This document shows, in pieces, positions 42,464 to 55,403 of a stretch of 64,000 nucleotides of DNA; the first letter of the stretch is position 1; every line of letters begins with the position of its first letter. The DNA comes from Armatimonadota bacterium (lineage in GTDB: Bacteria > Sysuimicrobiota > Sysuimicrobiia > Sysuimicrobiales > Humicultoraceae): assembly GCA_031459855.1 (NCBI GenBank), contig JAVKHP010000001.1:1160059-1224058 (forward strand), read 5' to 3'. The notes under the pieces are model-generated. The model was not told where the DNA came from, did no database searches, and worked only from the letters and a program-made list of their open reading frames with translations. The translations under genes were made by a program, and so were the position numbers.

Positions 42464-43570
42464 ATGGACGACACGTTGGAACCGCAGGCTTGGTCCACGC
42501 CTGGCGCGGATCCGTCGTGCTGCCCGCCAGATGATGCTGAGCCGAGCGGCGGGTTCATGCCACGGCGCGAGTTCCTGGCGAAGCTGACGCAGTTCGGCCT
42601 CGCCGCAGCCGGCCTGGCCTGGCTGGCCGATCGACCCGCGGCGGCGCAGGGGCGTCGGCGCGTGCGGCTGGCGTTCTGCAGCCAGCTGCTGTGCATCATT
42701 CCCTACGAGGTCGCCCGGCGCCAGGGTTACTACGCCGAGGCCGGGCTGGACGTGGAGCTCGTCTACTTCCGCGGCGGCACCGCCGCGATGCAGGCCCTGG
42801 TGGGCGGCGCGGTCGACTACGCGGCGACGTCGTTCGACGTGGCGCTGGCCGCCGCCGGTCGCGGCGCCGACGTCGTCCGGTTCTTCACCACCGGGCGGCT
42901 GCCGCTGTTCGCGCTGGCCGTGGCCCCGCACACGGCGGAAGCGGTGCGTGGGCTGGCCGACCTGCGGGGGCGCACGGTGGGCGTCTCAGGGCTGGGCAAC
43001 GCCGACCACCTGCTGGCCGTCTACCTGCTCCGGCGTGCCGGCGTGCCGCCGACGGCCGTGCAGTTCGCGGTGCTGGGGCCCAACCTCTTCGAGGCCCTGC
43101 GCGCCGGGCACGTCGACGCCGGCATGGTGCAGGAGCCCGCGGCCACCCTGCTGGAGCAGGCCGGCGGGCGCGTGCTCGTCAACCTCATGGACCTGGCCCA
43201 GGCGCGCCGGTACCTGGGCGGCCCGTACGAGTTCATGGGCGTGGCGGTCCGCGGCGCCGAATGGCAGGAGCGTCAGGCAGAGATGCGGGCGCTGGCGCAG
43301 GCGCTGGGGCGCGCGCTCCGGTTCATCCACTATGGGACCCCGCGGCTGGTGATCGACGCACTGCCGGGCGAGCTCATCGCCGGCGGCGACCGCGCGCTGC
43401 TCGAGCAGGTGCTGGCCCGACACCGCAAGTCGCTCTACCCGCAGGACGGCCGGCTCGACCTGGACGCGGCCCGCCGGGTCGTGACGGTGCAGCAGCAGGC
43501 AGGCCAGCCAGTGACGGCGGATCTCGGGCGCCTGCTAAACCCGGCGATCGCGGGAGCGGCTGGGCGCTGA
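42464..43570 (+). CDS. NMT1/SsuA-type ABC substrate-binding protein (Tat-exported)
   Basis: 368 residues from ATG 42464, with GGAGGGAGAG upstream. The twin-arginine signal is PRREFLAKLTQFGLAAAG at about residues 32-49, after a 30-residue Pro/Asp/Cys-containing leader. The mature protein has VRLAFCSQLLCIIPYEVARRQGYYAEAGLDVELVYF, GGTAAMQALVGGAVDYAATSFD and LRGRTVGVSGLGNADHLLAVYLLRRAGV, the NMT1/NlpA-like fold of aliphatic-sulfonate, nitrate or pyrimidine-precursor binding proteins. First gene of a three-gene importer (binding protein, ATPase, permease). No TPP riboswitch is visible upstream, so a thiamine-precursor role is not supported. Ligand unknown. Confidence 0.93.
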   Translation: MDDTLEPQAWSTPGADPSCCPPDDAEPSGGFMPRREFLAKLTQFGLAAAGLAWLADRPAAAQGRRRVRLAFCSQLLCIIPYEVARRQGYYAEAGLDVELVYFRGGTAAMQALVGGAVDYAATSFDVALAAAGRGADVVRFFTTGRLPLFALAVAPHTAEAVRGLADLRGRTVGVSGLGNADHLLAVYLLRRAGVPPTAVQFAVLGPNLFEALRAGHVDAGMVQEPAATLLEQAGGRVLVNLMDLAQARRYLGGPYEFMGVAVRGAEWQERQAEMRALAQALGRALRFIHYGTPRLVIDALPGELIAGGDRALLEQVLARHRKSLYPQDGRLDLDAARRVVTVQQQAGQPVTADLGRLLNPAIAGAAGR

Positions 43571-44358
43571 TGCCGGTCGACGCCGCGCTGGAGATCGTGG
43601 GCCTCACGGTCGCCTACGGCCGCCACGAGGTGCTGCGTGACCTCACCCTGGTGGTGCGGGAGGGTGAGTTCGTCGGCCTCGTAGGCCCGTCGGGCTGCGG
43701 CAAGAGCACGCTGCTGCGCGCCGTGGCAGGGTTGGTGGTGCCGGCGGCGGGCACGATCGCGGTCTTCGGCCGTCCGGTGGCCGGCTGTATGCCCGAGGTC
43801 GGCATCCTCTTCCAGGAAGACGCGCTGCTGCCGTGGCGCACCGCGCGGGACAACGTCGCGCTGGGGCTGCGCTGCCGCGGCGTGCGACCGGACGAGGCGC
43901 GCGCCCAGGCCCAGGCGTGGCTCGAGCGCGTGGGGCTGGGGGCGTTCGCCGACCGCTTCCCCCACGAACTCTCCGGTGGCATGAAGCAGCGCGTGGCGCT
44001 GGCGCAGGTGCTCGCGCCGCGGCCCCGTGTGTTGTTGATGGACGAGCCCTTCGCCAGCCTCGACGCCATCGTGCGGACGCTGCTCCAGGCGGAGTTCGCG
44101 CGGCTGGTGCGCGACGAGCGGCTCACAGTGGTGCTGGTCACCCACGACCTGGAGGAAGCGCTGCTGCTGGCCGACCGCGTCGCGTTGCTCTCGGCGGGGC
44201 CGGGCGCGCGCCTGGTCCGGGTCTACGACGTGCCGTTTGCGCACCCGCGCGACCCGGTGCACCTGCGCGGCGCGCCGGCCTTCGGGCGCTTGGTCGAGGC
44301 GCTCTGGGAAGACCTGCGGGGTGAGGTGGGCCGAATGGGGTGGGAGGTGATGGTGTGA
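43570..44358 (+). CDS. SsuB/TauB-type ABC ATPase
   Basis: 262 residues; ATG 43570 overlaps the previous stop (TGATG). Walker A VGPSGCGKSTLLRAVAGL, Q-loop region FQEDALLPWRTARDNVALGL, signature HELSGGMKQRVALAQVLA, Walker B RVLLMDEPFASLDAIV and H-loop VLVTHDLEEALLLADRV. The PWRT motif is typical of nitrate/sulfonate/taurine importers. It is the motor of the operon; the permease gene follows after about 160 bases that contain a duplicated start region. Confidence 0.95.
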   Translation: MPVDAALEIVGLTVAYGRHEVLRDLTLVVREGEFVGLVGPSGCGKSTLLRAVAGLVVPAAGTIAVFGRPVAGCMPEVGILFQEDALLPWRTARDNVALGLRCRGVRPDEARAQAQAWLERVGLGAFADRFPHELSGGMKQRVALAQVLAPRPRVLLMDEPFASLDAIVRTLLQAEFARLVRDERLTVVLVTHDLEEALLLADRVALLSAGPGARLVRVYDVPFAHPRDPVHLRGAPAFGRLVEALWEDLRGEVGRMGWEVMV

Positions 44359-44430
44359 GCCGTGGCGCGCGACGGCGCCGGGCCGTGCGTGACGTTGACC
44401 GCGGAGAGAGGCCAAGCGTGCGGCACCGGC

Positions 44431-44537
44431 GGACGAGGCCCTGGCATGAGGCGTCTGGCGCGCTGCCTCGCGGTGGGCCATGCGGCGTGCGCTGCGGGCG
44501 AGAGGAGGCCCCGGCATGAGGCGTCTGGGCGCGCTGG
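44431..44537 (+). repeat. 70-bp duplication of the permease start region
   Basis: GAGGCCCTGGCATGAGGCGTCTGG at 44435 reappears as GAGGCCCCGGCATGAGGCGTCTGGG at 44505, so the ribosome-binding site, ATG and first codons are doubled 70 bases apart. The two ATGs (44446 and 44516) are in different frames; only the second opens the permease. Confidence 0.75.
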
Positions 44538-45322
44538 TGGTGGTTTTGGGCGCGTGGGAAGGGGTCACGCGGTTGCGATGGGTCAGCGCGCTGGTGGTCC
44601 CCCCACCGGCGGCCGTGGTGGGCGCCCTGGGAGAGCTGGCGCGAGGCGGTGCGCTCTGGGGACACGTCGGTGCAACCGTCGCAGAGGCGCTGGGCGGCCT
44701 GGGCCTGGGTGTCGCTGCGGGCGGGTTGCTGGGCCTGGCGGCGGCATTGCTGCCGCCGGTTGCGGACGTGCTGGCGCCGGTCATGGCCGTGCTGAACGCC
44801 GTGCCCCGTGTGATCCTGGCGCCGCTGCTGGTGATCTGGTTTGGCATCGGCATGGCGTCGAAGGTCGCGTTGAGCTTCCTCCTGGTGGCGGTCACGGTGT
44901 TCTTCGCCGTCTACGGGGGCATCCGCGAGACCGATCGTCGCCTGATCGAGCGCGTGCGCACGCTCGGCGGTGATGCTTGGGTGGTCATCCGCGAGGTCTA
45001 CGTGCCCTCGGTGGGCGCCTGGGTGCTCGGCAGCCTCAAGCTGGCCGTCGGCTTCGCGTTCACCGGCGCGGTGGTGGGCGAGTTCGTCGCGTCGAGCCGT
45101 GGGCTCGGCTACCTGCTGTCGTTCGCGCAGAGCACCTACAACGCCGCCCTGACCGTCGCCCTCATCGTGCTGGTCATGGCGGTGACGCTGGCGTTGTTTG
45201 CCGGGTTGGAGCGCCTGGAACGGCGGCTGCTGCGGTGGAGGACCGGCACGGTCGGCGCTGGTGGGCGGCGCCTGGGGACCGCAGCGCGCACGCCGGCGCG
45301 CGGGGAGGCGGTGGTGCCTTGA
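44516..45322 (+). CDS. SsuC/TauC-type ABC permease
   Basis: 268 residues from ATG 44516, with GAGGAGG 8 bases upstream. Six membrane helices are visible (RRLGALVVVLGAWEGVTRL, VAEALGGLGLGVAAGGLLGLAAALL, LAPVMAVLNAVPRVILAPLLVIWF and later ones). IWFGIGMASKVALSFLLVAV and the EAA-like ERVRTLGGDAWVVIREVYVPSVGAWVLGSLKLAVGFAFTGAVVGEF are the BPD_transp_1 signature of sulfonate/nitrate/taurine permeases. The C-terminus ends with a basic cytoplasmic tail. It completes the three-gene importer. Confidence 0.93.
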   Translation: MRRLGALVVVLGAWEGVTRLRWVSALVVPPPAAVVGALGELARGGALWGHVGATVAEALGGLGLGVAAGGLLGLAAALLPPVADVLAPVMAVLNAVPRVILAPLLVIWFGIGMASKVALSFLLVAVTVFFAVYGGIRETDRRLIERVRTLGGDAWVVIREVYVPSVGAWVLGSLKLAVGFAFTGAVVGEFVASSRGLGYLLSFAQSTYNAALTVALIVLVMAVTLALFAGLERLERRLLRWRTGTVGAGGRRLGTAARTPARGEAVVP

Positions 45323-45481: not shown

Positions 45482-45550
45482 CTGTGGTTTTCTCCTGGTG
45501 AAGGAACCCTCTGGAGGCAGCCCGAAGGCTCTGACGGTTTCTCTCCACAG
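45482..45550 (+). ncRNA. possible structured leader RNA before the nucleoside-locus operon
   Basis: CTGTGG (45482-45487) pairs exactly with CCACAG (45545-45550). Inside, GAACC (45504-45508) can pair with GGTTT (45536-45540), and the hairpin AGCC-CGAA-GGCT (45519-45530) plus the short CCT/AGG pair fill that branch. The fold would end about 30 bases before the binding-protein start at 45581, with the ribosome-binding site (GAGGTGA) just outside. No known riboswitch class, including preQ1, fits what I can see. Pairing by chance in GC-rich DNA cannot be excluded. Confidence 0.35.
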
Positions 45551-45580
45551 GGAGGGATACAGGCACAGGGGGTGAGGTGA

Positions 45581-46849
45581 ATGTCAGTAAACTTTACGGT
45601 CACCCGCTGGCGATGGATGGTCATAGCCGCGGCCATCATGACGCTCCTTATCGTGCTGAGCTCGTGGGGTATCGCTCAACAGCGGGTGACCCTGCGGTTT
45701 TGGATGTCGGCGGATCCGGCCCTGGAGCAGGCGATGGATGCGCTGCTGCAGGCCTACATGCGGGTCAACCCCAACGTGACTGTCCAGCGCGACGCGTTCC
45801 CGTTCAACGAATACCACCAGAAGCTGACGACGGCCTTTGCTGCGGGCGATCCGCCCGACGTGTTCTGGATGGACGTGCGTACGGCCGCCTTCGCGGCACA
45901 GGGGAGCCTCGTGGTCCTCGAGCGGTTCCTGACGCCGCAGAACAAGGCCGATATTCTGGAGTCGGGGCTGATCGAGCCGGTGTGGAAAGGAAAGCTCTAC
46001 GGCATTCCCATGCACGAACTCACCGAGGGGCTCTTCGTCAATCGCACGATGTTCGAGGAAGCCGGTATTCGCATTCCGCAGCGCCTCAACGAGGCGTGGA
46101 CGTGGGACGAGTTTGTGTCGATCGCGCGGCGACTGACCAAGCGCACGGGCGATCGCACTGACGTCTGGGGCTTCGGTGTCCTGCGGCACCTGAGCGACTG
46201 GCCGATTCTGCCCATCATTTACCAGAACAATGGCGCCGTGCTCAGCCCCGATCTCAAGAAGGCCACCGGCTACCTGAACAGCCCGGCGACAGTCGAGGCG
46301 TTGCGCTGGTACCAGGACCTGTTCACGCGGCATCGGGTCATCGCGTTCGATCCAATCCCGGAGGGGTTCCCCGCGGGCAAGATCGCGATCTTCCAGGCGC
46401 CGAGCACGTACCGGGCAGTGCTGGATCGGCGGTACCCGGAGTTCAAGTACGCGGTGGTCCCGATGTTCCGCGGGAAGCGGTGCGCGGTGACAGCTGGAGG
46501 GTGGAACGTATCGATCTCGGCCAAGACCAAGCATCCCGAGCTGGCGTGGTCACTGGTGGACTGGCTTACCCGGGAACGGCACCAGGAGTGGGTGCGGACC
46601 AGCGGGTACCTTCCGGTGCGCAAATCCCTGCTCCAGCGGGACCCGCAGTTTCGTCAGTACCCTTGGAACATCTTCACTGCACAGCTTCAGAGCTGCGCGA
46701 TCCACCGCCCCCACACGCCCGCCTACAACTTCTTCTTCGACACGTTCCTGGCTATCGCCAAAGACATCGCTCTGGGGCGGGATGTGCAGAGGGTGCTGGA
46801 CGACGCGGCGGCGCGCCTGGACGCAGCCCTGGCCCGCGGCGGTCGCTAG
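45581..46849 (+). CDS. family-1 ABC substrate-binding protein (CUT1 type)
   Basis: 422 residues from ATG 45581, with GAGGTGA just upstream. An N-terminal signal or anchor (WMVIAAAIMTLLIVLSSWGIAQQ) is followed by VTLRFWMSADPALEQAMDALLQAY and a family-1 fold (YHQKLTTAFAAGDPPDVFWMD, GKLYGIPMHELTEGLFVNR, WTWDEFVSIARRLTKR, AGGWNVSISAKTKHPELAW). There is no lipoprotein Cys. Such proteins usually bind sugars, glycerol phosphate or nucleosides. It opens an operon with two permeases and then glycosidase-type enzymes, which suggests that a nucleoside or glycoside is the ligand. The ATPase gene is missing nearby. Confidence 0.93.
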   Translation: MSVNFTVTRWRWMVIAAAIMTLLIVLSSWGIAQQRVTLRFWMSADPALEQAMDALLQAYMRVNPNVTVQRDAFPFNEYHQKLTTAFAAGDPPDVFWMDVRTAAFAAQGSLVVLERFLTPQNKADILESGLIEPVWKGKLYGIPMHELTEGLFVNRTMFEEAGIRIPQRLNEAWTWDEFVSIARRLTKRTGDRTDVWGFGVLRHLSDWPILPIIYQNNGAVLSPDLKKATGYLNSPATVEALRWYQDLFTRHRVIAFDPIPEGFPAGKIAIFQAPSTYRAVLDRRYPEFKYAVVPMFRGKRCAVTAGGWNVSISAKTKHPELAWSLVDWLTRERHQEWVRTSGYLPVRKSLLQRDPQFRQYPWNIFTAQLQSCAIHRPHTPAYNFFFDTFLAIAKDIALGRDVQRVLDDAAARLDAALARGGR

Positions 46850-46933
46850 GCAGGCCGTGATCAGAGCCACGCGGCGGGTCACCCCGCGTCCCGTGGCGGA
46901 ACCCGGAACCGGATCCACCCGGCCGGGGCGTCC

Positions 46934-47857
46934 ATGAGGCGTGTCGGTCGCCCTGTCCAGGTGCCGCCTCGTGCAGCCCGTGGGTCGGGACTGGCCCGTC
47001 AGCGGTACGCCGCTGCGGCGGTCTTTCTGCTCCCGGCCACGGTCGGGATCGTATTGTTCGCGGTCCTCCCGATCCTCCAGGCGCTGCGCCTGAGCTTCTT
47101 CGACTACTCCCTACTCAACCCGCAGCTCGTCTTCGTGGGCGGGGCCAACTACGTGCGGGCGGCGCAGGATCCGGTGTTCCGCATTGCCCTGCGCAACACC
47201 CTCGTCTACGCTGGGCTGCTCGTCGTGGCGCAGACGGTGGCTGCATTGGGACTCGCGCTGGCCCTGAACCGCCCACTGCGCGGGTTGGCGTTCTTTCGAT
47301 CAGCCTTCTTCATCCCCGTGGTCACCTCGCTGGTGGTCATCAGCACGGTCTGGAAGCTGCTCTACAACTCCCAGGGGTTCATCAACAGCGTGCTGCAGGC
47401 CCTGGGCCTGCCTTCCCAGCCGTTCCTGGCCAGCGCCGACCAGGCCTTGGTGAGCCTGGTAGCCATGAGCGCGTGGAAGGAAGTGGGCTTCTACATGCTC
47501 ATCTTCCTGGCCGGCCTGCAGGCGATTCCCGCGGATCTCTACGAGAGCGCGGCCATCGACGGGGCCACGGGCTGGCAGAGCTTCTGGCAGATCACCGTAC
47601 CGCTCCTGCGGCGGGCTGCGGTCTTCGTGGTGGTGGTCGGAACGATCTCGGCCTTCAAGGTGTTCACCCCAGTCTACCTGATGACCGATGGCGGCCCTGC
47701 GGACAGCACCATGGTCTTGGTGTTCTACATCTTCCGAACCGCGTTCCGGTACTTCGAGATGGGATTTGCCGCCGCGATGTCGTTCTTGCTGCTGGTGATC
47801 GTGCTGGTCTTCACCTTGCTGCAGTTTCGGCTGCTGCGGACCACGGTGGAGTACTGA
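46934..47857 (+). CDS. CUT1-type ABC permease, MalF/UgpA subunit
   Basis: 307 residues from ATG 46934. Six helices; RQRYAAAAVFLLPATVGIVLFAVLPILQALRLSF is the usual N-terminus, and FKVFTPVYLMTDGGPADSTMVLVFYIF is the late periplasmic loop signature. The EAA loop is LYESAAIDGATGWQSFWQITVPLLRRA at about residues 205-230. Forms half of the importer channel with the following gene, which begins 3 bases after its stop. Confidence 0.95.
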   Translation: MRRVGRPVQVPPRAARGSGLARQRYAAAAVFLLPATVGIVLFAVLPILQALRLSFFDYSLLNPQLVFVGGANYVRAAQDPVFRIALRNTLVYAGLLVVAQTVAALGLALALNRPLRGLAFFRSAFFIPVVTSLVVISTVWKLLYNSQGFINSVLQALGLPSQPFLASADQALVSLVAMSAWKEVGFYMLIFLAGLQAIPADLYESAAIDGATGWQSFWQITVPLLRRAAVFVVVVGTISAFKVFTPVYLMTDGGPADSTMVLVFYIFRTAFRYFEMGFAAAMSFLLLVIVLVFTLLQFRLLRTTVEY

Positions 47858-47860
47858 GCG

Positions 47861-48781
47861 ATGCGGCGGCCTGCAGATGGCTCCCTGGTGGTGCCCGCCC
47901 GGGCGAGGCCCCGGGCGGTGGTCTCTCCCTGGGCCGTGGTCCGCCGTGCCAGCGGGCGCGTGGGCCTGTACGCGATGCTGACGGTCCTGGCGGCGATTTT
48001 CCTGGTGCCGTACCTCTGGATGGTGGCGTCCTCCCTGCGGCCGCAGGTCGAGATCTTTCGGTACGTGTCGCCGCTATCGTGGCGCACCTTCGTGCCGGAG
48101 GTGGTGACGTTCGACGCGTACCGTGAACTGTTTCGGCTGGTACCGTTCCCGTTCTCGCGCTACCTGATGAACAGCGTGATCGTGGCCACCGCGGTCACGG
48201 GTCTCAGCCTGATGGTCAACGCCATGGCGGCGTACGCCTTCGCACGCCTAGCCTTTCCCGGGCGCGATGTGCTCTTCGCGCTGTTCCTGGGCACGATGAT
48301 CGTACCCTTCGAGGTGCTCGCCATTCCCCTCTACCTGCAGGTGCGCGCGCTGGGCTGGGTCAACACGTACCAGGCGCTGATCATTCCGTGGGTTGCGAAT
48401 CCCCTGGGGATCTTCCTGCTGCGGCAGTTCTTCCAGGAGATTCCCCGGGAGTTGGAGGAGGCTGCCCGGATCGACGGGTGTTCCTATTTTGGCGCGTTCC
48501 GCCACGTCGTGCTTCCCAACGCGGTGCCTGCCCTGGTGGCGTTCGCCCTGATTCGGTTTCAGGCCAGCTGGGACGCGTTCCTGTGGCCGTTGATCGCGGC
48601 ACCGGCGGCCGAGAAGCGTGTGATCCAGGTGGCCATTGCCAGCTTCGTAACCGAGGTGCAGACACGCTGGGACCTGACGTTTGCAGCCAGCACACTGGCC
48701 ACCGTGCCCATCATCGTTGTCTTTCTCATCCTGCAGCGATACTACGTCCAGGGCGTCGTGATGAGCGGACTCAAGGGGTAG
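47861..48781 (+). CDS. CUT1-type ABC permease, MalG/UgpE subunit
   Basis: 306 residues. After a ~40-residue basic N-terminus come helices MLTVLAAIFLVPYLWMVASSL, YLMNSVIVATAVTGLSLMVNAMAAYAFARL and FALFLGTMIVPFEVLAIPLYL. The EAA loop is LEEAARIDGCSYFGAFRHVVLPNAVPALVAFALI, and FQASWDAFLWPLIA and the C-terminal LQRYYVQGVVMSGLKG are MalG/UgpE signatures. The next gene starts 75 bases later on the same strand. Confidence 0.95.
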   Translation: MRRPADGSLVVPARARPRAVVSPWAVVRRASGRVGLYAMLTVLAAIFLVPYLWMVASSLRPQVEIFRYVSPLSWRTFVPEVVTFDAYRELFRLVPFPFSRYLMNSVIVATAVTGLSLMVNAMAAYAFARLAFPGRDVLFALFLGTMIVPFEVLAIPLYLQVRALGWVNTYQALIIPWVANPLGIFLLRQFFQEIPRELEEAARIDGCSYFGAFRHVVLPNAVPALVAFALIRFQASWDAFLWPLIAAPAAEKRVIQVAIASFVTEVQTRWDLTFAASTLATVPIIVVFLILQRYYVQGVVMSGLKG

Positions 48782-48856
48782 GCACATGGGCTCCGCGAAC
48801 ATCGGCCGACGGCGTGGTGCTGTTTCTGAGGGCGCGAGGCGGAGGAGGAGGGCTGC

Positions 48857-49942
48857 ATGGAGGTACGGACGTACGAGGCGATGCTGGATGCCCTCCGGGC
48901 AATCGCGGCGTCTGCTCGTCACGTGACGATCGACCGCGCGCAGTTGGTGCGGGTTGCGGCGGTGCTTCGGGAGCGTCTTGGGGCTGACGACTTCCAGATC
49001 CGCCGCGAGCGCCCGGCCTTGGCGCCGGCGGACTGCCTGCAGTTCGCGCTGGTTGCCGGTACCCACAACTTCCTCATCTGGCAACGGATGCCTACTGGGG
49101 ACGTGGAGCCCTGGCGGGTACACGTCGACGGCGAGGAGCGCTACGGTGCCCCGGCCATCTACGCGTGCCACCTGCGAGCCCTGCGCGCCGGCAAGAACAT
49201 CCTTGACCCCAACTACCTGGTCTCGATGACACTGGCCGACATGGAGGACTACTACCGGGACGAGCGCACCGGCGCGGTAACCTTGCAATTCCTCCCGGAA
49301 CGCCTCGCTAAGTTCCATGAGGTAGGGCGGGTCCTCCGTGCCCGCTACCGCGGGTCGTTCGTGACGCTGTTCGAACGCGCCGAGGGCTGGCTGTTCCGTC
49401 CCGATGGTCAGGGGATCGTGCAACGGCTGCTCGACGACTTTCCGCTGGCGTATGGCGACTGGCCGTTCTGCAAGCTGATCATGGTGACCGTAGGGAACCT
49501 CTACGCCGACCAGGAGTGGCTGGGGCCGCCGGGCACCCCCGTGCGCACGCTGGTGGACCTGCGCGACCCCGAGCATCTGGAGGTGGGTGCCGACTACTAT
49601 CGACCTTTCTTCCTCTACCGAGTGGGGGTGTTGCGGGTGAGCGAGGCCTTGCGAGAGCATCTGCGGCAACGCGCCCTCATTCCACGCGACAGTCCCATGG
49701 AAAGGGAGTACCGGGCCTGGACGATCCTGGCCACGCGCGAACTCGCCGCACACCTGGGCGTGCTTCCGCACGCCCTGGCCACAGAGACGTGGGCCATGGG
49801 GTTCATGCGGTGCCGGCCCTGCCACCCGGGGGTGGACCCCGAGACAGTGCCGTGCGACTACCGAGGCGTCTGTCGAGCCTACACGAGCGACCCCGCGCTG
49901 ATGGAGGCGCTCTGGCCGCTGGTGCTGACCCCATGGTACTGA
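48857..49942 (+). CDS. queuosine-salvage-like protein (DUF2419/Qng1 family), paralog 1
   Basis: 361 residues from ATG 48857, preceded by GGAGGAGGAGG. ARHVTIDRAQLVRVAAVLRERL at the N-terminus, then NILDPNYLVSMTLADMEDYYRDE, LAKFHEVGRVLRARYRGSFVTLFERA, WPFCKLIMV, DPEHLEVGADYYRPFFLYRVGVLRVS and MEREYRAWTILATRELAAHLG follow in order the blocks of the queuosine-salvage glycosylase family, which releases queuine from queuosine-5'-phosphate. The similarity is by eye and distant. The C-terminus adds a Cys cluster (RCRPCHPG...PCDYRGVCRAY) that I do not recall from the family. A paralog starts 22 bases downstream. With the importer before it and a nucleoside hydrolase after it, a role in cleaving a modified nucleoside is likely. 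Confidence 0.65.
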   Translation: MEVRTYEAMLDALRAIAASARHVTIDRAQLVRVAAVLRERLGADDFQIRRERPALAPADCLQFALVAGTHNFLIWQRMPTGDVEPWRVHVDGEERYGAPAIYACHLRALRAGKNILDPNYLVSMTLADMEDYYRDERTGAVTLQFLPERLAKFHEVGRVLRARYRGSFVTLFERAEGWLFRPDGQGIVQRLLDDFPLAYGDWPFCKLIMVTVGNLYADQEWLGPPGTPVRTLVDLRDPEHLEVGADYYRPFFLYRVGVLRVSEALREHLRQRALIPRDSPMEREYRAWTILATRELAAHLGVLPHALATETWAMGFMRCRPCHPGVDPETVPCDYRGVCRAYTSDPALMEALWPLVLTPWY

Positions 49943-49963
49943 GCTGACGACTAAGGAGGCCGC

Positions 49964-51067
49964 ATGCCGTACACCTACGAGGCGATGCGTCGAGAGATCG
50001 CGGACCTGGTTGGGGCCGCAGTGCACGTGACGATCGACGACGGGGCGCTGGCCGACGTCGCCGTGGTGATGCGGCAGCAGCTGGCCACGGGCGGTACCGC
50101 GTTCCAGACCGATCCGCAGCGGTTCCCGGCCGAATCGCCGGCCGAGAACAGCCGTGACACCCTGCAGTTCTACCTCGTCTTGACGTCGCAGGAGTTCTGT
50201 ATCTGGCGGCGCCGGCCCGACGGGGCGGTGGAGGCCTGGGAGATCACCATCGGCGGGGAGCGCTTCGTAGGGGCACGTGGCATCGCGGCGGCGCACATGC
50301 GGGCCCTGCGGCGCGGCCAGCCGATCCTGGATGCGCGCTACCTGGCCGCGATGACCCTCGACGACGTGCGCAACATCTACCGTGACGAGCGAACCGGTCA
50401 GGTGACGCTGCAGCTGCTGCCGCAGCGGCTTGCCAAGTACAACGAGCTGGGCCGGGTGCTCCTGGAGCGCTACGACGGGCACGCGGCCAACCTTCTCGAG
50501 GCCGCCGACGGCTACCTGTTCCGCGGGGACGACCAGGGGCTGATCCAGCGGCTGCTGCTGGACTTTCCCACGGCGTACTTCGACTGGCCGTTCTGCAAGC
50601 TGGCGATGCTCTACCCGAAGTTCCTGAGCACGCGGGCCGTCGACGGTATTCCGACCACGCCGGGCTACCGGAGGCTCGTCCGCATCCGTGACCCCGAACA
50701 CTTCGAGATCGCCGCCGACTACTACATTCCCCTGTTCTTCATCCGCACCGGGATCTTTCGGATCAGCGCAGACCTGGCCGATCGCCTGCGTGAGCAACGC
50801 CTCATCGCCCGTGACAGCCGTATGGAGCGGGAGTACCGTGCGGCGACGGTCACCGCTGGCCGCCGGCTGGCCACAACCACCCACGCGGCGGTCAACGCGG
50901 TGGACACCGAGTGCTGGCGCATGGGGTACCTCGGCTGTCGGCCCTGTCGGGTGGGTGTCAGCGACGCTGAGCACCCGTGTGCGTACCGCGGGGTGTCCCG
51001 CGCGTTTCAGCGGGAGCACGCGCTCATGGAGCTGCGGTGGCCGCTGGTGCTGACGACGTGCTACTGA
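49964..51067 (+). CDS. queuosine-salvage-like protein (DUF2419/Qng1 family), paralog 2
   Basis: 367 residues from ATG 49964, with AAGGAGGCCGC upstream. It aligns end to end with the previous protein: YTYEAMRREIADLVGAAVHVTIDDGAL, PILDARYLAAMTLDDVRNIYRDERTG, LAKYNELGRVLLERYDGHAANLLEAADGY, WPFCKLAML, DPEHFEIAADYYIPLFFIRTGIFRIS, MEREYRAATVTAGRRLA and the Cys segment LGCRPCRVG...PCAYRGVSRAF. The shared Cys are C-x2-C plus one; paralog 1 has a fourth. Tandem divergent paralogs may form a heterodimer or act on two forms of a substrate. The call as glycosylase rests on distant similarity and context. Confidence 0.65.
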   Translation: MPYTYEAMRREIADLVGAAVHVTIDDGALADVAVVMRQQLATGGTAFQTDPQRFPAESPAENSRDTLQFYLVLTSQEFCIWRRRPDGAVEAWEITIGGERFVGARGIAAAHMRALRRGQPILDARYLAAMTLDDVRNIYRDERTGQVTLQLLPQRLAKYNELGRVLLERYDGHAANLLEAADGYLFRGDDQGLIQRLLLDFPTAYFDWPFCKLAMLYPKFLSTRAVDGIPTTPGYRRLVRIRDPEHFEIAADYYIPLFFIRTGIFRISADLADRLREQRLIARDSRMEREYRAATVTAGRRLATTTHAAVNAVDTECWRMGYLGCRPCRVGVSDAEHPCAYRGVSRAFQREHALMELRWPLVLTTCY

Positions 51068-51324
51068 CGTTGTTGCTGAGGAGGCCGCGTGGCGCGGAGA
51101 CACGGTGGGCTGGCGAGCAGCGCAGCGCGCTATCCACGTAGCGTAGACACCGTGGAGAGTACCATCGCGCAGCGAGGCGTGTCATCGCGGGGCATGACGC
51201 ACGGCGCTCTCACGCTTCCTCGCGCCAGTTTGCGCACGCTGCGCGGACGTCGTTGCCCGTGCCCGGGGCGCGGCCGTGCCTCCCTGCCGCAGCCGGAAGC
51301 ACGCAGCCACCGAGGAGGCCGGGG

Positions 51325-52263
51325 ATGCGGGTGATCATCGATACCGATCCGGGGATCGACGACACCGCGGCGATCTTCCTCGGGCTCGCCGCCGGGCTTG
51401 ACGTGGATGCGATTACCACGGTCTTTGGCAATACCGACGTCGAGCAGTGTACGCACAACGCCCTGGTCATCCTGGAAGCGGCCGGTCGGCCCGACATCCC
51501 GGTGTACCCTGGAGCGGCCCGGCCGCTGCTACGCGAGCCGACGTACGCCAGGGCGATCCACGGACAGAACGGGCTCGGCGACGTTGCGTTCCCCGCGCCA
51601 GCGCGGGCCCCCGCGGCAGCAGGCGCAGTGGAGACGCTCATCGAGCGCATCCTGCAGGCACCGGGCGAGATCACCGTGGTGGCGCTGGGGCCGCTCACGA
51701 ACGTCGCCCTGGCACTCGCCGCGGAACCCCGTGTGGCGCGGGCGGTGCGCCAGATCGTGCTCATGGGGGGCGCCGTGCTCACCTGGGGCAACGTCACGCC
51801 GGCTGCCTCGGCGAATCTCTACAACGACCCCGAGGCCGCGCGGATCGTGTACCGCTCGGGAGCACCGCTGGCCCAGGTCGGGCTCGACGTCTGCCGGCCC
51901 ACTGTGATCACTGCGGCGCACCTTGCGCGCCTGCGGCGGGCAGACAACCCGGCCGTGGGGCTGCTGCTGCAGATCACGCCGTTCATCCAGGAGGCGTACC
52001 GGCGTCGTGGGATTGCGGCGGTCGCCGGTGGCGGGGTGCAGTACAATGACGTGGTGTGCATGTCCTATGTCCTTCGCCCCGACCTGTTCCGGGTGCGACG
52101 CCTCCCCGTCGACATCGAGACCCAAGGCAGCCTGACCGCGGGGGCCACCGTGGCGGACTTCGACGGGCAGTGGGGGCGGCCCGCGAACGTGGATGTGGCG
52201 CTCGAGGTGGACGCGGGGGGCGTAGCGGACGTCTTCACGGAGACGCTGCTCGCCTGGCGCTGA
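51325..52263 (+). CDS. inosine/uridine-type nucleoside hydrolase
   Basis: 312 residues from ATG 51325, with GAGGAGGCC upstream. RVIIDTDPGIDDTAAIFLGL carries the Ca2+-binding DTDPGxDD motif. NTDVEQCTHNALVILEAAGR, TVVALGPLTNVALALAAEP, IVLMGGAVLTWGNVTPAASANLYNDPEAARIV complete the fold. Near the C-terminus the His-Asp of typical members reads YNDVVCMSYVLRP, so the usual active-site His is Asn while the metal Asp is kept. It should hydrolyse the N-glycosidic bond of a ribonucleoside. One branch of this family (QueK) is known to act on queuosine in some bacteria. The 258-base gap before it has a ribosome-binding site (51078) and a short GTG frame without recognisable product. Confidence 0.93.
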   Translation: MRVIIDTDPGIDDTAAIFLGLAAGLDVDAITTVFGNTDVEQCTHNALVILEAAGRPDIPVYPGAARPLLREPTYARAIHGQNGLGDVAFPAPARAPAAAGAVETLIERILQAPGEITVVALGPLTNVALALAAEPRVARAVRQIVLMGGAVLTWGNVTPAASANLYNDPEAARIVYRSGAPLAQVGLDVCRPTVITAAHLARLRRADNPAVGLLLQITPFIQEAYRRRGIAAVAGGGVQYNDVVCMSYVLRPDLFRVRRLPVDIETQGSLTAGATVADFDGQWGRPANVDVALEVDAGGVADVFTETLLAWR

Positions 52264-52290
52264 CACGCGGTCGACGAGGGGGGCGGATTA

Positions 52291-53091
52291 GTGCGGCTGG
52301 CAGGGAAAGTTGCCGTCGTCACCGGAGGCGCGCAGGGCATCGGACTGGCCATCGCTAGGCGGTTCGGCGCGGAAGGCGCGATGGTGGTGGTCGCCGACGT
52401 CGACGAGGAACGGGGAACCCGAGCGGCGGCGATGCTGCAGGGGCACGGAGCCCCGGCGCTGTTCGTGGCCACGGATGTTGCGTGTGCTGACCAGGTGGCC
52501 CGGCTCTTCGTCCGGACGGTGGAGGCGTTCGGCCGGGTGGACGTGCTGGTCAACAACGCAGCCCTGGCCCACGGCCCCGGAGTCGAACGCCACTTTCTGG
52601 ATACCGACGAGGCCACGTGGGACCGCGTGATGGCGGTGAACCTCAAGGGTGTGTACCTGTGCGCGTGGCACGCCGCGCGCCAGATGGTGGCGCGCCGCGC
52701 CGGGTGCATCATCAACATGAGCTCGTGCGGCGCCACGCGCGCTCATCGCCATCGAGTCGCCTACGATGCGGCCAAGGGGGCGGTCGAAGCGGCCACACGC
52801 GCCATGGCCTTGGATCTGGCACCGTGGGGCATCCGTGTCAATGCCATCGCCCCGGGCGCGATCGCCGTGGAACGACGCAGCCCCGTGGGGGCGGAAGCGC
52901 GGACGGCCGTGAGCGACGTCATCCCGTTGGCCCGCATGGGCACCGGCGCCGACGTGGCGGGCGCAGCGGTCTACCTGGCATCCGATGACGCGGCCTACGT
53001 GACCGGCACCGTCGTCACCGTCGACGGCGGGCTCTCGGCCCAACTCCGGTCACCGGCGGTCGACGTGAAGATCGTGTTCACGGGCCAGTAG
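52291..53091 (+). CDS. short-chain dehydrogenase/reductase
   Basis: 266 residues from GTG 52291. VAVVTGGAQGIGLAIARRFG is the cofactor motif, DVLVNNAALAHGP the NNAG-like motif, and IINMSSCGATRAHRHRVAYDAAKGAVEAA the catalytic Ser-Tyr-x3-Lys set. WGIRVNAIAPGAI and VTGTVVTVDGGL are usual. Classical SDRs of this kind oxidise sugars or polyols with NAD(P). It lies 27 bases after the nucleoside hydrolase, so it may handle the released sugar (inference). Last gene of the plus-strand operon. Confidence 0.94.
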   Translation: MRLAGKVAVVTGGAQGIGLAIARRFGAEGAMVVVADVDEERGTRAAAMLQGHGAPALFVATDVACADQVARLFVRTVEAFGRVDVLVNNAALAHGPGVERHFLDTDEATWDRVMAVNLKGVYLCAWHAARQMVARRAGCIINMSSCGATRAHRHRVAYDAAKGAVEAATRAMALDLAPWGIRVNAIAPGAIAVERRSPVGAEARTAVSDVIPLARMGTGADVAGAAVYLASDDAAYVTGTVVTVDGGLSAQLRSPAVDVKIVFTGQ

Positions 53092-53245
53092 CAGAAGCCA
53101 CGCATCCCAGCACCGCTGTCGGCAGCCGCTGGTCAGGCGACTGCCGCCAGCTCGGGCACGTGCTGTGGCGCCGAGCGGTTGGTCCGGTGCGCGTATCGTG
53201 TGCGCGTAGCGTGCCACCTATGTCTCGTCACGGACCATGGAGCGT

Positions 53246-53734
53246 TTACGCGATGCCAGCGTCCACGGAAGAGGTCTCATCGGTCCGGCCTGCCCAGCGC
53301 AGGAGTTCGGCAGTCGCTTCGGCGAACGAGGAGACGATCCGGCCGCGCTCGTGGATGCACTCGACGACGTAGGCGTTGACCGCACGGGCACCCGCGGCCC
53401 AGTCCCACCTGGCCACCCGCGTGTCGTGCAGGACGCCGATGATGCCCTGCTTGGGCATTCCCAGGCGCATCATGGCGTGGAAGGCGCCGATGTGGGCCGC
53501 GACGGCGTCGTCGACGCTCAGGCCGTCGAGGATGGCGACGAGGGCGTCGGCTTCGTGTAGGGCGGCGAAGTCATCAGCCACGGTACTCTCAGCGCGGTCG
53601 CCGACGGCAGGCGTCCACGTGCCCTCGACGGGAGTGTAGCACGTAATTCCCTTATCCCGGAGCACGCGTGCGCACTTGACCAGGAACTCACGAGCGTAGG
53701 GCGTAGCGATGATGCCGGTGAGGAAGACCTTCAC
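53246..53734 (-). CDS. nucleoside 2-deoxyribosyltransferase-fold protein lacking catalytic Glu
   Basis: 162 residues from GTG 53734, with GGAGGG upstream. VFLTGIIATPYAREFLVKCARVLRDKG and HEADALVAILDGLSVDDAVAAHIGAFHAMMRLG follow the PF05014 pattern, and NAYVVECI matches the C-terminal Asn segment of its neighbour. In active enzymes the segment after the Asp reads SGTxxE with Glu as the nucleophile; here the corresponding residues are DDAVAAH, so the Glu is His. It may be a partner, a regulator or an enzyme of changed chemistry. It converges on the SDR and lies 130 bases downstream of its paralog. Confidence 0.82.
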   Translation of the reverse strand: MKVFLTGIIATPYAREFLVKCARVLRDKGITCYTPVEGTWTPAVGDRAESTVADDFAALHEADALVAILDGLSVDDAVAAHIGAFHAMMRLGMPKQGIIGVLHDTRVARWDWAAGARAVNAYVVECIHERGRIVSSFAEATAELLRWAGRTDETSSVDAGIA

Positions 53735-53863
53735 GGAATCCCTCCTGCAACATGTAGGTGTGTAGTCGGCGCGGCCAGGCATGCATCGACTCGAGCTGGC
53801 AGGGCCGATCTTTCTGAGGCACGGAGAAACACAGTGGGCATGATCGGGGGCCTGGGTATCGCG

Positions 53864-54355
53864 TCAGAGGAGCAACCCCTCAGCATGCAGCTCCCGGCGC
53901 CAGACATCGAGGTGCGCAATGACTTCGTCGAGCGTACGGTAGACGGCGCCCGCGGCTTCGACGGTGCCCAGCGTGAACGCATTGATCGGCGGTGCACCAG
54001 CAGCGGCCCGCTTCCATGCACGGGCGTCGGTGAGCAGGCCGAGGATACCCTTTTTCGTCTTGTCGTGCTGCATCAGGCCGTAGAAGATGCCGATCTCAGC
54101 TGCGGTGCCGCTGCTGACGTCCGGATCATCCAGCAACGCGACGATTGCGTGGGCGTCTGCGACCATCTTGTAGTCCATCTGGAAGATTTGTGCTGGCGTG
54201 AGGACCTTGCCAGTCGCCCGGTCGATTTCATGCACGACGCCGCGCTCGTGTGGCACCAGGCATACGAAGCCCGCGTCTCGTAGGCGCTCGGCATTACGGG
54301 CGATGAAGGCGCGATGGTACGGGGTGAACAGCGGACCTGCCATGTAGATCTTCAT
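53864..54355 (-). CDS. nucleoside 2-deoxyribosyltransferase-family protein
   Basis: 163 residues from ATG 54355, with AAGGAGA upstream. KIYMAGPLFTPYHRAFIARNAERL is the nucleobase-binding N-terminus, YKMVADAHAIVALLDDPDVSSGTAAEIGIFYGL carries the SGTxxE motif with the nucleophilic Glu, and PPINAFTLGTVEAAGAVY is the C-terminal Asn region. The family covers deoxyribosyltransferases and nucleoside-monophosphate glycosidases such as RCL/DNPH1. An insert with VHEIDRATGKVLTPAQIFQ is between strands. With its Glu-less paralog it may form a complex. Divergent from the cupin gene across a 424-base gap. Confidence 0.88.
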   Translation of the reverse strand: MKIYMAGPLFTPYHRAFIARNAERLRDAGFVCLVPHERGVVHEIDRATGKVLTPAQIFQMDYKMVADAHAIVALLDDPDVSSGTAAEIGIFYGLMQHDKTKKGILGLLTDARAWKRAAAGAPPINAFTLGTVEAAGAVYRTLDEVIAHLDVWRRELHAEGLLL

Positions 54356-54778
54356 GGTGTCTCCTTGGTCGAACGCATCTGTGCAATGATTCCGGCCGGG
54401 GGCACCCGGTCCCCGCGTGCCGATGGTGGTCCCGGGTGGAGGACTGCTGGACCGCATCCCCTGGCCAGGGTCCCTCCCGTGCTCGACGCATTCGCCTACA
54501 CGATCGGTCATTCCCCCTCCGAGGGTTGGCTGCGCCGTTGCCCGAGGGTGAAGTGCGAGGGTTAGGAGGCAGCGTGTGATCGGTTGCGACTTCGTTTTGT
54601 CCTGGCCTGCAGGCGGCGCTTTCGTGGCTGCGCCGGGCTCTGGATCCTCCTGGCGGGAAGGGTGAATGCAGGCGCCGAAGGGTGGGGAACCGTCCGGGTC
54701 GGGGTAGGCGGCGCGCTGTGCACAACCCAATACCATGGGACGGTCGAATGGCGCTCACACTGTAGAGGGGGGACACAG

Positions 54779-55153
54779 ATGCCGCAGGCATCCAGGGCAA
54801 CAGCATTTCAGGTGGAGGTGGCGGAGGGGTTTGAAGGTCGGTACCAGGAAGTGGGTAGCTACACGATTGGGTTCGAAACCTACACCGCCCATGCAGATTT
54901 GACTCCCCTGTTCAAGGGACTCCCAGACGACCGCTGTCAGTGTCCGCACTGGGGCATCGTGCTGCAGGGCAAGCTCGTTTACCACTACGCTGACGGCGAC
55001 GACGTAAGCACCGCGGGAGAAGCGTACTACGCCGCTCCCGGCCACACCCCCGAGATCTTCCCGGACACCGAGGTCGTCGAGTCCAGCCCTACGGTGGAGT
55101 TGAGGAAGACGATGGACGTCGTGATGAAGAACGTTGCGGCGATGGGCGGCTAG
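54779..55153 (+). CDS. single-domain cupin protein
   Basis: 124 residues from ATG 54779, with GAGGGGGG upstream. The barrel motifs are CQCPHWGIVLQGKLVYHYADGDD (first His/Glu-type motif) and GEAYYAAPGHTPEIFPD (second). YEVGSYTIGFETYTAH precedes them. Cytosolic, metal-binding potential through His; role unknown. Its location beside the nucleoside locus, divergent from the transferase pair, is suggestive but not proof. The 424-base region before it has no gene and presumably holds both promoters. Confidence 0.87.
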   Translation: MPQASRATAFQVEVAEGFEGRYQEVGSYTIGFETYTAHADLTPLFKGLPDDRCQCPHWGIVLQGKLVYHYADGDDVSTAGEAYYAAPGHTPEIFPDTEVVESSPTVELRKTMDVVMKNVAAMGG

Positions 55154-55327: not shown

Positions 55328-55403
55328 GGGCCCTTAGCTCAGCAGGCAGAGCGGCGGGCTTTTAACCCGCGCGTCGGGGGTTCGAGTCCCTCAGGGCCCA
55401 CCA
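55328..55403 (+). tRNA. tRNA-Lys (UUU)
   Basis: Acceptor stem GGGCCCT pairs with AGGGCCC, followed by discriminator A and an encoded CCA (55401-55403). The D arm, anticodon arm GCGGG-CTTTTAA-CCCGC and T arm (GGGGG-TTCGAGT-CCCTC) are all in place. The loop CTTTTAA puts anticodon TTT at 55361-55363, decoding Lys. Confidence 0.97.

Follow-up and report, generated by a model that had tools for sequence, protein, structure and literature searches.

Enzymes of the Qng1/DUF2419 family, known from Sphaerobacter thermophilus and human (PDB 7u07 and 7ugk), hydrolyze queuosine-5'-phosphate, and the family has been reported to resemble the 8-oxoguanine DNA glycosylases (PMC11592518). Two other described systems handle related compounds, namely the QueK-type queuosine hydrolases, which go with QueL, and the BMP/PnrA-type importers, such as NupABC and its relatives. 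Here we compare with them a locus in 64,000 nucleotides of an Armatimonadota genome (contig JAVKHP010000001.1, positions 1,160,059 to 1,224,058; hereafter, the window), in which two adjacent genes of the Qng1 family (Q_salvage, PF10343) lie between an ABC importer of the CUT1 type and a nucleoside hydrolase. We consider it reasonably probable (about 0.6) that the locus is an operon for nucleoside catabolism into which a nucleosidase of the Qng1 family, duplicated and bearing a Cys motif, was recruited; the ligand, enzymatic activity, and metal we infer from sequence and gene context.

The importer and hydrolase core

The seven genes between 45581 and 53091, all on the plus strand, read as one operon: the gaps between them are, in order, 84, 3, 75, 21, 257, and 27 nt, and a Shine-Dalgarno-like sequence is seen ahead of most of the starts. 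The first codes for a CUT1-type substrate-binding protein, a putative nucleoside-binding subunit (45581-46849; SBP_bac_1, PF01547, E = 9e-37), and is followed by two permeases of the BPD_transp_1 family (46934-47857 and 47861-48781), the two Q_salvage genes (48857-49942, E = 6e-22, and 49964-51067, E = 1e-24), an inosine/uridine-type nucleoside hydrolase (51325-52263; IU_nuc_hydro, PF01156, E = 1.8e-90), and a short-chain dehydrogenase/reductase (SDR; 52291-53091; E = 8e-65, of the PRK07231-type subfamily in NCBIfam). All seven had been recognized in an earlier note on this DNA, and Pfam bears out each of them. The start of the hydrolase is corrected here from 51253 to 51325, ahead of which stands GAGGAGG.

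The binding protein was searched against 386 genomes, and the surroundings of its closest relatives, all in the same order, were then searched with the proteins of the window; the 43 genomes that sample the phylum all belong to this one order. The nearest relatives (34-35% identity; genomes G030 and G033) have nucleoside hydrolases as neighbors, and ten loci in nine genomes of the order combine related permeases with such a hydrolase. In eight of these (G002, G012, G013, G019, G020, G021, G030, and G033), the conserved core has the order ADP-ribosylglycohydrolase, binding protein, permease, permease, nucleoside hydrolase; the ADP-ribosylglycohydrolase upstream of the binding protein has no counterpart in the window. 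The remaining two, in G027 and at a second place in G033, have a binding protein, a permease, and a nucleoside hydrolase, and in the latter locus adenosine deaminase is encoded a few genes upstream. The hydrolases of the ten loci are 36-50% identical to that of the window, a short fragment in G019, where the contig ends inside the gene, being set aside. Several loci are more elaborate: an IF-2B-family protein is encoded upstream in G002, G013, and G021, in the first of these along with a GntR/UTRA regulator (seen in locus L067), and a PfkB kinase and a second nucleoside hydrolase are encoded downstream in G012, G013, and G021. Pfam confirmed the IU_nuc_hydro, ADP_ribosyl_GH, PfkB, IF-2B, and GntR/UTRA assignments in representative loci. 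The cluster in its fuller form (L067, L069, L070, and L072) joins the IF-2B-family protein, the ADP-ribosylglycohydrolase, the CUT1 importer, and the hydrolase, with the PfkB kinase and second hydrolase in the last three, and could be a route from nucleosides to pentoses. No paper describing an order-wide operon of a CUT1 importer and a nucleoside hydrolase was found.

The association follows the phylogeny of the transporter. On the permease tree, linkage to a nucleoside hydrolase requires 3 changes, against a mean of 8.7 after shuffling, and none of 500 shuffles was as low. With 82/75 support, the permease of the window groups with those of the G030 and G033 loci. Among the sampled permeases, hydrolase linkage is seen in all nine at 48-51% identity to it and in 1 of 15 below 44%, a count in which at least one of the 15 lies on a 5.2-kb contig where a hydrolase could be missed. 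That the linkage tracks the close relatives of the permease provides the strongest evidence for nucleosides as the cargo of the importer, and the conserved core supports nucleoside uptake and catabolism. To this extent the function first proposed for the locus holds, since, within the order, the closest relatives of its importer repeatedly have as neighbors the nucleoside hydrolases, the ADP-ribosylglycohydrolases, PfkB kinases, and a protein of the IF-2B family. A second CUT1 locus of the same genome (L042:7680-13353) encodes an enzyme of the penicillin amidase family (by Pfam) and an IclR-like regulator, with a nucleoside hydrolase about 10 kb off.

The closest solved relatives of the window hydrolase are the RihA/RihB-type pyrimidine/ribonucleoside hydrolases, and its active-site region reads QYNDV, with Asn at the position of a His in RihA. 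Conservation across the related importer-hydrolase loci does not extend to the SDR; one in G030 was considered as its ortholog and rejected at 29% identity.

The Q_salvage pair and its Cys-rich insert

The two Q_salvage proteins score 78.9 and 87.9 bits against PF10343 (curated cutoff, 25), have sequence matches among the solved Qng1 structures, and reach an hhalign probability of 99.8% against canonical members, so that their earlier placement in the queuosine-salvage family stands. They are 52% identical to each other, and by their sequences and position the pair is a tandem duplication.

Their distribution is very different from that of the core. Within the phylum, the pair is present in the genome of the window alone, the other 42 having no relative of it, and only eight others of the 386 genomes encode a member of the family; in this sample, the large phyla seem to be covered by few genomes each, judging from the small phyla met. 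Thus, the co-occurrence that the earlier note had led one to look for is found for the importer and hydrolase and fails for the pair. The same set of genes was not recovered a second time from the 43 phylum genomes, the 386-genome sample, or two collection-wide scans. These contig scans and one viral scan with the paralogs returned nothing, although with narrow, automatically derived peptide patterns that make this weak evidence of absence. Given the apparently sparse sampling of large phyla and scan patterns chosen by the tool, other genomes with the same arrangement may exist. A tblastn search matched the pair to nothing in phages and to a single distant gene of the queuosine salvage family among plasmids. 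The latter (L009:7854-8768), on a conjugative plasmid of Azospira, adjoins a DUF4031 gene, with a helicase and a DNA methyltransferase encoded in the vicinity, and has relatives on Variovorax plasmids.

When compared with six canonical Qng1 sequences, the copies retain 26 and 24, respectively, of 42 invariant columns. The invariant Lys and the Asp of the ADY motif (K191 and D223 of the canonical set) are kept as K206 and D246 in copy 1 and as K212 and D252 in copy 2, and both copies preserve the E..E.R motif and the Trp. Of Asp298 and Trp302 of the Sphaerobacter enzyme, which are reported as active-site residues (PMC11592518), both are present in copy 2 (D314 and W318), and copy 1 has Ala308 and the Trp. 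The Arg and Gln of the KRAQ motif are changed in both copies, which read KLIM and KLAM; the corresponding motif is K-L-x-Q in G060 and G207, the two genomes of a small phylum that encode the nearest comparable proteins.

Both copies further carry a Cys-rich C-terminal insert, placed between the Asp298 region and the C-terminal T..Y, which is absent from canonical Qng1. It reads C319-x2-C322-x10-C333-x5-C339 in copy 1 and C325-x2-C328-x10-C339-x5-Ser345 in copy 2, where the last Cys has given way to Ser, and the proteins of G060 and G207 have C-x4-C-x2-C-x5-C at the equivalent place. The window pair lies on a long branch from canonical Qng1, and its grouping with G060 and G207 is weakly supported (60/73). 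Searches of the insert against PHROGs and Pfam gave no match except for one chance-level transposase match in G060. By analogy with the related DNA-glycosylase fold, the motif probably binds a metal or an Fe-S cluster, which we offer as a lead; AlphaFold models of the two copies, built from two-sequence alignments, have mean pLDDT values of 35 and 38. In G060 and G207, the genes with the C-x4-C-x2-C-x5-C motif (L019:7326-8384 and L022:484-1542) are situated a few genes upstream of a pyrimidine-nucleoside phosphorylase.

Queuosine supply and competing explanations

The tgt gene of this genome lies about 1.7 Mb from the locus and adjoins queA. Its product has the pocket GGLSVG, of the preQ1 type, and does not fit the pattern GG[LS][AS]G that is typical of queuine-inserting TGTs; in the form GGLAVG, the Val is expected to keep queuine out (PMC11570991). 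The same protein (L008:9342-10643) reads PLDHL at a site that is AFDEC in the Zymomonas TGT and PLDVC in two relatives, which puts Leu in place of the pocket Cys158. Elsewhere in the genome, a QueF gene adjoins a QPTR transporter (L053:7814-8886; G000:C1:1729813-1730885), and no QueC was found above the equivalog cutoff, the weak PF06508 match covering 60 residues of another PP-loop protein. Queuosine is therefore most likely made from imported preQ0 or preQ1. Across the phylum, TGT is found in 31 genomes, QueF in 27, and QueC above the curated cutoff in none. The QPTR (PF02592) beside QueF is the only one in the 43 genomes; in the relatives, the gene after QueF apparently codes for a QueT-like transporter, an assignment that Pfam bears out in G033. 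From these gene contents, preQ0 salvage is apparently phylum-wide, with one swap of transporter.

Of the canonical Qng1 genes in the sample, those of G230 and G142 stand beside tgt, and that of G139 adjoins a nucleoside ABC importer of the BMP type. The neighboring TGTs have the pockets GGDLG and GGSLG, which lack the Val and are queuine-like. At L023:2156-7222, a canonical Qng1-type gene directly precedes a Bmp-type nucleoside-binding protein, an ABC ATPase, and a BPD_transp_2 permease, and this transporter is a candidate queuosine importer.

Several other features surround the operon. Downstream and convergent with it, and hence outside it, are two minus-strand genes for proteins with the nucleoside deoxyribosyltransferase (NDT) fold. 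NDT-fold protein 1 (53246-53734; PF05014/PF15891-type, with marginal Pfam scores) has His at the position of the nucleophilic Glu (DDAVAAHIGAF), departs from the pattern D/S-G-x-x-x-E-x-G, and is probably no standard deoxyribosyltransferase; protein 2 (53864-54355; PF05014, E = 3.7e-14) has a catalytic-type Glu (SGTAAEIG). The small plus-strand gene that follows (54779-55153) had been called a cupin, a label we drop, as a Pfam search relaxed to E<=5 gave no match for its product; it probably lies outside the system. Judged by family and motif, cleavage of N-glycosidic bonds is well supported for the two Q_salvage proteins and the nucleoside hydrolase, plausible for NDT-fold protein 2, and doubtful for protein 1. 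The count of five such enzymes in the earlier note was thus too generous, because NDT-fold protein 1 has His for Glu and marginal scores and the NDT-fold genes lie outside the operon, on the opposite strand; nor did membership of these two proteins and the supposed cupin in the system find support. The GC content at third codon positions (GC3) is 0.84-0.89 in the operon, with the Q_salvage pair in line, and lower in the small protein (0.63) and NDT-fold protein 2 (0.77). Next to the block, at 55328, is a tRNA-Lys gene, and this tRNA was the only element to pass the gathering threshold in an Rfam search, which returned no riboswitch. A genomic island at this tRNA is unsupported, as no att-like repeat of its 3' end recurs within the window. 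Upstream on the same strand (42542-45322) is an NMT1/THI5-like ABC importer (binding protein, ATPase, and permease) that ends 258 nt before the operon.

Against the reading of the locus as a nucleoside-catabolic operon with a recruited nucleosidase pair, it can be held that the closest solved relatives of the binding protein are sugar binders and that sugars are the usual ligands of CUT1 binding proteins. There is also no ribokinase within the block, and the link between the pair and the importer comes from one locus with short spacings, since no second genome has the pair in such an operon. Further, activity of the pair is not assured, because both copies differ from canonical Qng1 at R192 and Q194 (G277 numbering), and copy 1 has lost D290, which corresponds to D298 of the Sphaerobacter enzyme. 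These substitutions, the long branch, and the Cys motif, absent from canonical members and present with another four-Cys spacing in the equivalent insert of G060 and G207, would also suit proteins that no longer act on queuosine-like compounds and are metal-dependent N-glycosidases or binding proteins of another purpose (e.g., clean-up of damaged nucleotides), placed by chance in a nucleoside operon. However, each copy retains the Lys, the catalytic-type Asp, E..E.R, the Trp, and about 25 of the 42 invariant columns, and a setting among nucleoside-processing genes fits a nucleosidase, so that we hold this alternative to be unlikely. We take a similarly skeptical view of the possibility that only the importer and hydrolase form a functional operon and that the Q_salvage pair, the NDT-fold genes, and the small protein arrived in separate acquisitions and serve no common function. 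The single occurrence of the full set, the absence of the pair from 42 relatives, the strands and deviating GC3 of the downstream genes, and the flanking tRNA would all agree with such a patchwork, but the pair itself sits inside the operon, where it shares the strand and GC3 of its neighbors and lies 75 nt from the second permease and 257 nt from the hydrolase, with 21 nt between the copies; the att-like repeat, too, is wanting.

True queuosine salvage would have the importer take up queuosine or its phosphate and the pair free queuine, which would then serve tRNA either directly, through TGT, or after conversion back to preQ1 by a QueL-type lyase. Membership of the pair in Q_salvage well above the Pfam cutoff, a genome that uses queuosine without de novo synthesis (no QueC above the cutoff), and the G139 precedent for Qng1 beside a nucleoside importer speak for it. 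Yet the TGT of this genome has the Val expected to exclude queuine (PMC11570991), unlike the TGTs that adjoin Qng1 in G230 and G142; the QPTR-QueF pair already serves preQ0 and preQ1; tgt is far from the locus; and two invariant Qng1 positions are changed. Free queuine would be of use to this cell only through a QueL-type enzyme. For these reasons, queuosine salvage for tRNA is possible and not favored, and we judge it quite improbable. The queuosine or other deazapurine ligand that had been suggested for the importer is left without support, as the other 42 genomes of the phylum lack the pair and the cell has its own route through preQ0 and preQ1. The locus offers a new variant of the Qng1-family enzyme; that the cell salvages queuosine does not follow from it.

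Under the preferred reading, that of a catabolic operon with a recruited Qng1-family pair, the importer would take up a nucleoside and the inosine/uridine-type hydrolase would split it into base and ribose. The Q_salvage pair would add the cleavage of nucleosides or nucleotides that are handled poorly by the standard hydrolase, such as 7-deazapurine or otherwise modified ones, in a catabolic step that does not serve the queuosine of the cell's own tRNA; the SDR may act on the sugar, or not at all. More tentative, and on the whole doubtful, is the further proposal that an undescribed branch of Qng1 with a C-terminal metal or Fe-S Cys motif consists of catabolic nucleosidases for a modified nucleoside, such as a 7-deazapurine one, imported by a dedicated CUT1 transporter and does not feed tRNA modification. 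If the pair does cleave modified nucleosides, bacteria can consume those derived from RNA or DNA by means of a Qng1-family enzyme, a role that goes beyond queuine recycling. The order-wide operon would extend a family of transporters that is annotated for sugar import to nucleosides as a further class of substrate, and the Cys-bearing branch bears on the relation of the family to the Fe-S DNA glycosylases.

Comparison with known systems

With the characterized Qng1 enzymes, the window proteins share PF10343 over most of their length and the Lys, ADY Asp, E..E.R, Trp, and C-terminal T..Y. They differ in the changed R192 and Q194, the missing Asp298 equivalent of copy 1, the extra Cys-rich insert, and their tandem occurrence, away from tgt, in a genome with a preQ1-type TGT. 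The order-wide operon of CUT1 importer and hydrolase has homologous binding protein and permeases, a hydrolase 47-50% identical to that of the window (G002, G012, G013, G019-G021, G030, and G033), and, in several loci, the same-strand order of binding protein, two permeases, and, with or without intervening genes, hydrolase. In place of the ADP-ribosylglycohydrolase, IF-2B-family protein, and PfkB kinase of those loci, the window has the two Q_salvage genes and the SDR.

The QueK-type hydrolases belong to the same Pfam family as the window hydrolase (PF01156), whereas the latter is closest among solved proteins to the RihA/RihB type and its relatives have no queuosine genes nearby. Nucleoside import and linkage to salvage enzymes are proposed both for the BMP/PnrA-type importers, one of which adjoins Qng1 in G139, and for the window; the former, however, combine Bmp with BPD_transp_2, and the window combines a CUT1-type SBP_bac_1 protein with BPD_transp_1. 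Finally, the HhH-GPD DNA glycosylases with an Fe-S loop, EndoIII and MutY, likewise carry a C-terminal Cys motif. The Fe-S loop of EndoIII is spaced C-x6-C-x2-C-x5-C; its C-x5-C ending is shared by copy 1 and its C-x2-C-x5-C ending by the proteins of G060 and G207, but the full spacing is unmatched, as copy 1 has C-x2-C-x10-C-x5-C and copy 2 ends in Ser.

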